From the NCBI GenBank assembly GCA_002720855.1, contig PBIN01000015.1:372001-436000 (forward strand): 64,000 nt of DNA. Reading direction: 5' to 3'. The notes beneath the pieces were generated by a model that was not told where the DNA came from, ran no database searches, and saw nothing but the letters and a program-made list of their open reading frames with translations. Positions 31,213 through 34,952 of this stretch are shown here, piece by piece (position 1 is the first letter of the stretch; every line of letters begins with the position of its first letter). The DNA is from Rhodospirillaceae bacterium. GTDB taxonomy: Bacteria > Pseudomonadota > Alphaproteobacteria > MPNO01 > UBA2964. The position numbers and the translations under genes are program-made.

Positions 31213-33897
31213 TTACGCCGCCTCGTCTGCGATGTTCCGCAGCACATACTGCAGAATACCGCCGTGCCGGTAATATTCGACTTCATCTAGCGTATCGATA
31301 CGGCAACGGGTCGTAATCTCGACAACCGAACCATCGGCGCGGGTGATTTTCACCGGGATATCCATACCGGGGGTAATTCCTTCGGAAATACCAGTAATAT
31401 CAAAGATCTCGGTACCGTCCAGTTCAAGCGACTCCCGGTTTTGCCCGTCTTTGAATTCAAGCGGTATAACACCCATACCGATTAAGTTTGACCGGTGAAT
31501 ACGCTCAAAGCTTTCGACGATGGCAGCCTTGATGCCGAGCAGATTTGGACCCTTTGCAGCCCAGTCACGGGACGAGCCCATGCCATAGTCCTTGCCAGCG
31601 ATAACAACCAATGGAATGCCGTCCTTTTGATAGAGCATCGAGGCTTCAAAGACCGACATTTCCTTGCCTTCCGGCAAATGCTTGGTAAAGCCGCCCTCTG
31701 TGCCGGGCACCATTTCATTGCGAATACGGATATTCGCAAAGGTGCCTCTGGTCATGACCTCAAAATTGCCGCGCCGGGCACCATACGAATTAAAATCCTC
31801 CGGCCGGATCTGGCGCTCAAGCAAAAATTCACCGGCGGGGCTAACTTTTGGAAATCCGCCTGCCGGCGAGATATGGTCAGTGGTGACCGAGTCACCCATT
31901 TTCAGCAAAACACGGGCTCCTTCAATATCCTTCAGGTCAGAAGGCTCCGGTCCCATCCCCTCAAAGAAGGGGGGGTACTGAACATAGGTTGAGCCCGAAT
32001 TCCACGCATAGGTTTCTCCTTCAGGAACGCCCATTTCGTTCCAGGTTTCGGAGCTGTCTCCAACATTGTTATAACGTTCGCGGAACATCTCCGGCGTAAT
32101 GCAGGCGCGGATCGTATCCTGGATTTCCTTGTTGGTTGGCCAGATATCCTTGAGATAAACCGGGTTACCATCCCTATCCTCGCCGATCACGTCTTTCGTT
32201 AAATTCACGTGCAGTGAGCCTGCCAGTGCATAGGCAACGACAAGCGGCGGTGAGGCCAAATAGTTTGCTTTTACCTGTTGATGTACGCGGCCCTCAAAAT
32301 TGCGATTTCCCGAGAGAACGGCTCCGGCGACAAGATTGCCTTCATCGATCGCATCGGCAATTGGACCAAGCAACGGTCCGGAGTTGCCAATACAGGTCGT
32401 GCAGCCATAACCGACAATGTTGAATCCAAGTTCGTCCAAATCGTCCTGCAGACCTGCTGCCGCGAGATAATCCGACACCACCTGACTACCCGGTGCCAGC
32501 GAGGTCTTTACCCAGGGCTTCACTTTTAAACCTTTGGCGACGGCGTTGCGCGCAACCAAACCTGCAGCCACAAGCACCGACGGATTTGAAGTGTTTGTGC
32601 AGCTGGTAATCGCAGCGATGGCGACATGCCCGTCTTTCATCGCATAGTCGGACCCTTCGACTTCCGCCTCACCTTTGCTCGCATCCCAGGTCGGCAGCTC
32701 CTCGGCAAAGTTATTGGGCATCTCCGAAAGTGCCACCCGGTCCTGCGGACGCCGTGGTCCTGCCAGGCTCGGTTCAACCGTTGAGATATCGAGCCCAAGC
32801 GTATCGGTGAAAATTGGATCTGGTGAATCTGCCTCGCGCCACATGCCCTGCTCTTTGGCGTAAGCTTCGACCAAGGCCACCTGATCCGCTTCGCGTCCCG
32901 TGGACTCCAGAAAATTGATGGTTTCGGAATCGATGGGAAAGAACCCGCACGTGGCACCATATTCAGGCGCCATGTTGGCAATTGTTGCACGGTCGGGCAG
33001 GCTGAGATTGTCCACACCGGGGCCGCAAAACTCAACAAATTTGGATACCACTCCTTTGGCGCGAAGCATCTGCGTTACGGTCAACACCAGATCGGTTGCA
33101 GTGGTGCCTTCTTTTAACGCGCCAGTGAGTTTGAAACCAATAACCTCGGGCAAAAGCATTGAGATTGGTTGCCCGAGCATCGCCGCTTCCGCTTCGATGC
33201 CACCACATCCCCAGCCCAAAACGGCGAGGCCATTAACCATAGTCGTATGACTGTCAGTCCCAACAAGCGTATCTGGATAGGCAATGACTTTGCCGTCTTC
33301 CTCTGTTGTCCAGATAGCCTTGGCGAGGTACTCCAAATTGACCTGATGACAAATTCCCATTCCCGGAGGTACGACCCGGAAGTTTGAAAAGGCGTTTTGG
33401 CCCCAGCGCAGGAACTCATATCTTTCCTGATTTCGCGAGAACTCAAGATCGACGTTTTTTTGAAAAGCGTCCGGCGTCCCAAAATTGTCGATCATAACCG
33501 AATGATCAATTACGAGATCAACCGGGCAAAGCGGGTTAATCTTCTGGACATCACCGCCCATCTTGAACATGGCGTCGCGCATCGCCGCCAGATCCACAAC
33601 TGCCGGAACACCAGTCAGGTCCTGCAACAGGACCCGCGCCGGCCGAAAAGCAATCTCGTCGCTGGCGCTTGGTTTTCCGTTCCACGAAGCCGCCGCTTTA
33701 ACATCGTCGGCGGTAACTGTTCGCCCGTCTTCGTAACGCAGAAGGTTTTCGAGCAACACCTTCATCGAATAAGGCAGCGGCGCAATATCGCCTATGCCCT
33801 GCGCTTCAGCAGCCTTTAAGCTGAAATAATCATAATTTTTGCCCTTAACGGATAGCGTGCTGCGCACGCCCAGGCTGTCATTGCCGGTTACACCCAC
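31213..33897 (-). CDS. acnA: Aconitate hydratase A
   Basis: Full-length 894-residue aconitase of the AcnA/IRP1 type. It interconverts citrate and isocitrate in the TCA cycle. The 4Fe-4S ligand cysteines are in '[11 protein letters not shown]' and '[12 protein letters not shown]', and the swivel-domain motif '[12 protein letters not shown]' is present. The start is GTG with GAGGAGA just upstream. It is divergent from the candidate small RNA and the ccm operon. Confidence 0.97.
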
Positions 33898-34059
33898 GGC
33901 GATCTCCTCACTTTATTTTGGTTTTTTAACACGTTTTTTGACACGTTTTTTAATGTGGCGCGAAAATAACGCCCAAATGCCCTATTTCTCAAGCTAAACG
34001 TTACAACAAACCTACTTAAATCGCCCAAAAATAGGATTAATTACCACAATATTGCCTTA

Positions 34060-34204
34060 TTTCAGCCCTTGGACTCGCGAAATTAGGCACCATCTTAAGA
34101 GTCCTAGCCCCCAACGGGACACCACCCCCCCCGGTGTCCCACCAGCCCTGCAAAGGGTTGGTCTCCCCTTAAGGCCGTCGGTTCCCCCCGGCGGCCCTTT
34201 TTTT
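34060..34204 (+). ncRNA. Candidate structured small RNA with C-rich loops
   Basis: The 407-nt gap between acnA and ccmA has no convincing gene but holds a row of hairpins on the plus strand. These are GGACTC/GAGTCC (34071-34076 with 34099-34104), a perfect 8-bp stem (34116-34123 with 34133-34140) whose loop is A plus eight C's, an 8-bp stem (34142-34149 with 34154-34161), and a terminator hairpin with a C-rich loop. C-rich loops in successive stems are typical of bacterial trans-acting sRNAs that pair with Shine-Dalgarno sequences. The 5' end is a guess; no clear promoter is visible. It could instead be a ccmA leader attenuator. Confidence 0.5.
34173..34204 (+). terminator. Rho-independent terminator of the candidate small RNA
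   Basis: A 9-bp stem with one wobble (34173-34181 with 34188-34196) and loop TTCCCC is followed by seven T's. No protein gene ends just upstream on this strand. Confidence 0.8.
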
Positions 34205-34304
34205 GACCTTTCTTCATATGGTGGCTTTCTCGTTATGGCTTTATTAAGGTGGCGGCGCCAGCTTACGGTTAAATACAGCCATATCATTGGCAAATTAGGG
34301 ACAA

Positions 34305-34952
34305 ATGAAGTTTTTCGGGGAAAACATCTCCTGCGTCAGAGGCGAGCGATTGGTCTTTAGGGGGCTGAATTTCGCTGTGGAACCGGGAGGTGCCCTGGTG
34401 CTTACCGGCAATAATGGTTCAGGGAAAACGAGCCTGCTCCGCGTAATGGCCGGTCTTAACCGTGCAACTGTCGGCAAAATTGCCTGGAGCGACGGCCCGA
34501 TATCAGATGATCCAGAGAAGCATCATGGTCGTTTGCATTTTATCGGTCATCTTGATGCGCAAAAGCCGGTTCTGTCTGTCGGGGAAAATCTTGAAATGTG
34601 GGCACGATTGCACGGAGGTACCGACGAAAAAATCGCGATGGCCATAAAGAAACTAAAGCTCGATGGTTTCGAAGATTTACCGGGACGTTATTTGTCGGCG
34701 GGTCAAAGACGGCGCCTTTCCCTGGCACGATTGGTCGCCAGTGAGGCACCGCTCTGGATACTCGACGAACCAACGATCGCGCTCGACGAAGGATCGGTTG
34801 CAGCGGTTCGCGCTCTAATTTCCGAGCATCGAGACGCTGGCGGAATGGCGGTTATCGCCACAAATGTAGAGTTGGGCCTTTCTGACACCACAAAACTTGA
34901 TATGCGCGATTATGCCGCAGGCCAGGACGATATCTGGGAGGGCGTTTCATGA
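34305..34952 (+). CDS. ccmA: Cytochrome c biogenesis ATPase CcmA
   Basis: A 215-residue ABC ATPase with Walker A 'GNNGSGKTS', signature 'LSAGQRRRLSLARL' and Walker B 'LWILDEP'. CcmA energises the CcmABCD complex that releases holo-CcmE with haem to the periplasm. It is the first gene of the ccm block and overlaps ccmB by 4 nt (ATGA). Confidence 0.95.
   Translation: MKFFGENISCVRGERLVFRGLNFAVEPGGALVLTGNNGSGKTSLLRVMAGLNRATVGKIAWSDGPISDDPEKHHGRLHFIGHLDAQKPVLSVGENLEMWARLHGGTDEKIAMAIKKLKLDGFEDLPGRYLSAGQRRRLSLARLVASEAPLWILDEPTIALDEGSVAAVRALISEHRDAGGMAVIATNVELGLSDTTKLDMRDYAAGQDDIWEGVS

Follow-up and report, generated by a model that had tools for sequence, protein, structure and literature searches.

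What does a clear transcription terminator end when no protein gene precedes it? In the window, the 64,000-nt stretch of DNA analysed here, such a terminator lies between acnA and ccmA, and a preliminary description had proposed that it closes a small RNA (sRNA) with C-rich loops, located at 34060-34204 and folded into four successive hairpins. Comparison with related genomes indicates that this intergenic element is a real, conserved sRNA gene. The independent gene and its C-rich unpaired segments were upheld, but its boundaries were not, the gene being confined to 34105-34204 (Table 1).

Layout, fold and conservation of the intergenic RNA

As had been proposed, the terminator serves no upstream coding gene, since acnA runs divergently on the minus strand from 33897 and ccmA begins at 34305, 100 nt past the terminator's T-run.

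Table 1. Features of the acnA-ccmA region, in window coordinates (A6 is the alignment of 13 members; R1, R2 and R3 are covariance models).
Feature	Position	Strand	Basis and remarks
acnA, divergent neighbour	31213..33897	-	Pfam PF00330, PF00694
Conserved DNA element CCACAATATTGCCTTATTTC, probable regulator site	34044..34063	+	Conservation, fixed spacing, presence upstream of RNA matches elsewhere
Possible -35, TTGGAC	34069..34074	+	Inspection of the upstream alignment, 13 members
Possible -10, ATCTTA	34092..34097	+	Inspection of the upstream alignment; 17-nt spacer; would place the start near 34104-34106
sRNA gene, approximate mature RNA	34105..34204	+	About 100 nt, 5' end predicted; R1, R2 and R3 match exactly these bases
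Unpaired C-rich 5' segment UAGCCCCCAAC	34105..34115	+	UAGCCC in 11/13 members; CAGCCC in G016; UAGAACC in G026
Hairpin A, 8 bp, loop ACCCCCCCC (A and eight C's) at 34124-34132	34116..34140	+	A6: 95.6% of cells paired; 4/9 pairs with double-sided changes
Hairpin B, 9 bp, GCAA loop	34141..34162	+	A6: 79.5% of cells paired; 5/6 modelled pairs with double-sided changes; partly out of register in A6
C-rich linker CUCCCCUUAA (CUCCCC)	34163..34172	+	CCCUCCU-like in several relatives
Intrinsic terminator	34173..34204	+	A6: 91.0% of cells paired; 8/12 pairs with double-sided changes
ccmA	34305..34952	+	Pfam PF00005; followed by ccmB at 34949, PF03379 (CcmB)

The 145 nt of 34060-34204 folded at -59.1 kcal/mol, compared to -41.05 ± 3.63 kcal/mol for shuffled sequences (n=200; z -4.97), none of which equalled it. 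Three of the four hairpins originally described, namely A, B and the terminator, were conserved, and the loop of one A and eight C's was indeed present, in the hairpin at 34116-34140. The first hairpin (GGACTC/GAGTCC, 34071-34104) was not conserved and was rejected: among five aligned genus genomes 60% of its cells pair, with no double-sided changes, and pairing slid by one column performed equally well or better (63 and 73%); the stretch also overlaps the presumed promoter.

The terminator stem-loop (34173-34196) is followed by CTTTTTTT, which contains seven T's. The C-run reported in its loop is present in five genus members but is replaced in five order relatives by GAAA, TTCG, GCAA (twice) or GTAA; C-rich terminator loops were seen again in other families. 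The C-rich character of the 5' end, loop A and linker is kept by most of the 13 members; G015 departs from it in loop A (UUUACCU) and G026 at the 5' end (Table 1).

Mean identity of the RNA (34105-34204) to four congeners was 0.89, compared to 0.54 from there down to ccmA, 0.70 over the presumed -35 and -10 and 0.69-0.75 towards acnA. DNA similarity alone gave convincing matches in five of 61 genomes, the window's own included, all of them within the genus, and so anchoring on ccmA was required to find more distant members. A ccmA match was obtained in 25 of the 27 order genomes, and the same architecture was found upstream of ccmA in G009, G010, G017, G019 and G022. The covariance model built from these five, R1, recovered its sources together with the genus genomes G000, G001, G002, G003 and G007, as well as G026, G015 and G016. 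Eleven of these 13 members (the window's own and 10 other order genomes) are flanked by both acnA and ccmA, and two (G015 and G016) are flanked by acnA only.

Compensatory stem changes among relatives, a test set beforehand, were found. In A6, an alignment of the 13 members fitted to the model, which favours structure, 90.1% of the cells were paired, compared to 33-53% in slid controls, and 17 of 27 pairs had changed on both sides, compared to 10.9 ± 1.7 in shuffles; double-change cells numbered 55 (shuffles 20.2 ± 4.0), and the covariation score was 0.438, whereas shuffles gave 0.198 ± 0.020 and slid versions no more than 0.138. A larger alignment of 31 rows (A8), likewise model-fitted and including weak members, so that it is supportive and not decisive, had 91.6% of its cells paired and double changes in 27/27 pairs. 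Comparison among relatives shows the stems to be under selection. A fold arisen by chance in GC-rich intergenic DNA next to an ordinary terminator would agree with the number of terminator-like sites found there, which does not exceed that of shuffles (2 observed, 3.2 expected), but the fold z-score, the conservation contrast and an upstream element at a fixed distance speak against it and the compensatory changes in A6 contradict it, making it highly implausible.

The window's genome holds one convincing copy of the sRNA by DNA search and a single R3 match at E<=0.01. Both reading of the loci and the R1 model found no recognisable RNA in the congeners G005, G006 and G008, which keep acnA and ccmA, indicating that the gene can be lost.

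The upstream element and occurrence in other families

Identity to congeners is higher still at 34041-34065 (0.96), the stretch that holds the upstream element. The TTGCC-type core of the element lies 52-53 nt before the start of the RNA model in 11 of the 13 members, 56 nt in G016 and 47 nt in G026, which also has the most atypical RNA of the 13, and a pattern search within the window returned the site itself as the sole match. The consensus over 38 sites, which were chosen for the element, so that only what lies outside it counts as independent, has a TCACA and a CCACA block spaced by 11 bp, with a block resembling CCACA following 22 bp on; in the window's own copy blocks two and three are degenerate. 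Blocks about 11 and 22 bp apart on one helix face are the layout of OmpR/PhoB-type regulators, and a DNA-binding regulator of this type may perhaps bind the element in tandem. Searching 15 whole genomes for the element gave 15 matches, compared to one for the reversed control: four were RNA loci (G000, G002, G016 and G022), four (L338, L343, L344 and L347) fell inside one conserved reading frame, which we take to be rsmI, and seven lay elsewhere, and no regulon for the element emerged from these 15 genomes. In three congener loci with acnA and ccmA in which the RNA is unrecognisable (L050 of G008, L051 of G005, and L126), a degenerate element was readable by eye (ACAAATTTAGCCTAATTC in L050).

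A ccmA-like match was present in 237 of 385 genomes, and 120 ccmA-upstream regions from other families, taken from the best part listed and leaving out genomes already known, were surveyed with an element weight matrix derived from ten order members and with the R2 model, trained on the order only. At E<=0.01, R2 matched 23 of the 120 regions, in each case on the strand of ccmA; the match in L330, a lone terminator 616 nt upstream, was dropped. Element scores exceeded the best of 120 shuffles in 28 regions on the forward strand and in three on the reverse. Of the 20 regions with an RNA match of at least 20 bits, 16 carried the element, as did 3 of 6 with a weaker entered match and 9 of 94 entered as without one, these 94 including four weak matches that were left out (10.6-14.3 bits, E 0.048-0.5, one on the opposite strand). 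Fisher's test of 16/20 against 9/94 gave 5e-10, a value that is indicative only, as the rows are related. In the 16 regions, which represent eleven families, the element starts 56-119 nt before the RNA match. Since element and RNA co-occur across families, the gene appears to be old and widespread.

R3, applied to 100 of the 120 regions, added 11 more at E<=0.01, bringing the lenient total to 33/120 after the removal of L330; the stricter count of 16 is the one relied on. Six of the nine element-only regions were among those later matched by R3 at this threshold (L224, L226, L239, L265, L277 and L292); of the others, L307 reached E 0.019, and by eye L321 is RNA-like and L282 is not. Several loci of other families (L224, L270, L277, L321 and L292) carry a ACCTCCCCTCT or ACTTCCCCTCT segment on the 5' side, most of them with a GAGGCTT-type hairpin in addition, giving a four-part form.

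Searches free of an anchor were less selective. In the class, R2 matched 30 of 385 genomes at E<=1e-4, four in the order and 26 outside it, and three of the eight outside-order loci inspected, all of family f117, adjoin ccmA. In the phylum, R3 matched 12 of 398 genomes at E<=1e-5, one being the window's own; nine of the other 11 loci were fetched and one of them (G184) lies beside ccmA. Genome-wide, R3 scores of up to 42.6 bits also occurred at apparent gene terminators. As terminator-like loci also score highly, distant membership needs position, strand and element together. Class matches of R1 (65 of 289 genomes at E<=0.05) did not exceed 37 bits outside the genus, were mostly terminator-like among the loci shown and were not counted, and over 80 named acnA loci (L126-L205) R1 gave ten matches to E 1, the best at 21.1 bits and none on the opposite strand just upstream of acnA. 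One of these, a Thalassospiraceae MAG locus (L132:2643-2736, minus strand), displays by eye, between ccmA and acnA, two hairpins, the first with a C-loop, and a distinct terminator, together with a similar upstream block (GTCACATTCGGGGGC) and a weak R3 match (E 0.021), and is possibly a divergent form of the sRNA.

The position of the RNA raises the alternative that it acts in cis on the ccm operon, as a leader or attenuator transcribed from an upstream start and conditionally terminated before ccmA. In most members ccmA does follow in the same orientation, some 30-270 nt past the RNA, and most outside-order members were found through ccmA anchoring. Yet the G016 locus has acnA next to the RNA but lacks ccmA, in G015 the RNA lies between acnA and convergent ring-hydroxylating dioxygenase genes, likewise with no ccmA, and in family f117 (G139, G241 and G405) the RNA directly precedes ccmA with no acnA in the locus. 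That either neighbour can be absent argues for a separate gene and not for a ccm leader. Moreover, 87 of the 120 ccmA-upstream regions have no RNA even by the lenient count, and the folds that were inspected gave no sign of an alternative pairing. We consider a leader unlikely. The reading that we favour, and judge probable, is a stand-alone, single-copy sRNA gene on the plus strand, with its own promoter and terminator, whose C-runs would serve translational repression.

Relation to known C-rich sRNAs

At Rfam cut-offs the window contains two tRNAs only, and in none of the sRNA loci scanned (that of the window, nine of the order and 20 others) did any Rfam family attain its cut-off; a permissive scan of 33890-34310 gave seven matches up to E 10, all below cut-off. 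The sRNA resembles C-rich, anti-Shine-Dalgarno sRNAs and joins none of the Rfam families compared.

Membership among the cuckoo-type RNAs, suggested initially, did not hold. Alpha-r14 (RF02344) scored 21.9 bits in the window, against a cut-off of 58.8, and 33.7 bits at best (L270) among the nine order and 20 other loci. Alpha-r14 and NfeR1 are, like the RNA studied here, alphaproteobacterial, with three hairpins and C-rich unpaired segments capable of anti-Shine-Dalgarno pairing, and alpha-r14/cuckoo RNAs are defined by an identical CCUCCUCCC in each of the three hairpins (PMC10746234). This repeat sets them apart, as it is absent from 34105-34204 and from the order members inspected. Cuckoo/CcsR is further associated with a DUF1127 small protein gene (PMC10253847). 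The annotated flanks of the window sRNA are acnA and ccmA.

The 6C RNA (RF01066), an Actinomycetota family, has a six-C hairpin loop in its consensus, a likeness to our RNA, and scored 19.5 bits in the window against a cut-off of 47 (E 2.8). Xanthomonas sX13 (RF02232) belongs to another class; it was not among the seven window matches to E 10, and the sole relative listed for it was L208, at 33.7 bits against 50. We regard sX13 as the closest functional model for the window sRNA. Its published account gives a length of 115 nt, three stems and C-rich loops, a build similar to that of our RNA, and states that repression requires these loops and G-rich motifs near translation starts, that it is Hfq-independent and that compensatory mutants failed to restore control (PMC3771888).

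A closer relation was considered for alpha-R8 (RF00519; suhB/MmgR/SisA), of which the sRNA might be a distant member bearing one more hairpin on its 5' side. The match to RF00519 covers the 3' half (hairpin B, linker and terminator), with 27.8 bits in the window and 37.9 in the best member (G010), and both share the order of hairpin, C-rich linker and terminator. MmgR/SisA carries an anti-Shine-Dalgarno signature (PMC12559287). By position, a C-rich linker (CUCCCC in the window, ACCUCCCU in G010) lies where alpha-R8 has its characteristic anti-Shine-Dalgarno 10-mer. The window RNA differs in its additional 5'-side C-loop hairpin, and the members scanned remain below the cut-off of 41. Three other places in the same genome score nearly as high with a CCTCCCTGTT linker, and the sub-cut-off matches of the 20 outside-order relatives go to alpha-r14, sX13 and anti-hemB. 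We hold membership in alpha-R8 to be quite unlikely. The three places (L036, G000:C10:262-335; L037, G000:C15:21-94; L038, G000:C10:60792-60865) are MmgR/alpha-R8-like candidates in their own right, with 27.1-27.4 bits to RF00519 and CCTCCCTGTT before a terminator, L036 comprising two similar tandem copies at a contig end.

By its build the sRNA gene belongs to a functional kind that is already known. No published sRNA at the acnA-ccmA position was found in the open-access literature searched.

Proposed mode of action and meaning

By analogy with the sRNAs discussed above, the window sRNA is most likely a trans-acting translational repressor acting through its C-runs. The exposed C-runs of the 5' end, the loop of hairpin A and the linker would block the translation of several mRNAs by pairing with their G-rich Shine-Dalgarno regions, possibly with Hfq, whose presumed role fits with an Hfq gene being encoded in the genome, while a DNA-binding regulator would read the upstream element.

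Among 55 ORFs of the window, with starts chosen by anti-Shine-Dalgarno pairing, start regions were better partners for loop A and the linker than internal coding sequence was (p 0.002 and 0.016), the start region of acnA reaching -13.0 kcal/mol with the linker and that of ccmB -14.1 kcal/mol with the 5' segment, values similar to those of many others. With the first start or the first ATG of the same ORFs, none of the segments gave a significant p (0.09 and 0.46 for loop A, 0.32 and 0.11 for the linker). As the anti-Shine-Dalgarno control was not significant either with these unbiased starts, the pairing test has no power; no target emerged.

The gene neighbourhood is the only hint of a respiratory or iron-related role; two genomes lack the ccmA side of this arrangement and the three of f117 lack its acnA side. 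A wider proposal, which we regard as speculative and rather doubtful, is that the place of this old alphaproteobacterial sRNA between acnA and ccmA, together with its dedicated upstream element, makes it the RNA arm of an unrecognised regulon, tuning translation of TCA-cycle and cytochrome c functions to a respiratory signal.

C-rich anti-Shine-Dalgarno sRNAs are already known from Sinorhizobium, Caulobacter, Rhodobacter and Xanthomonas. A further family, adjoining ccmA in several of the class's families and carrying its own upstream element, would provide a ready set of genomes in which to look for targets and for the regulator, and it allows a connection between an sRNA and cytochrome c maturation to be tested, with the losses of the RNA within the window's genus serving as natural knock-outs.
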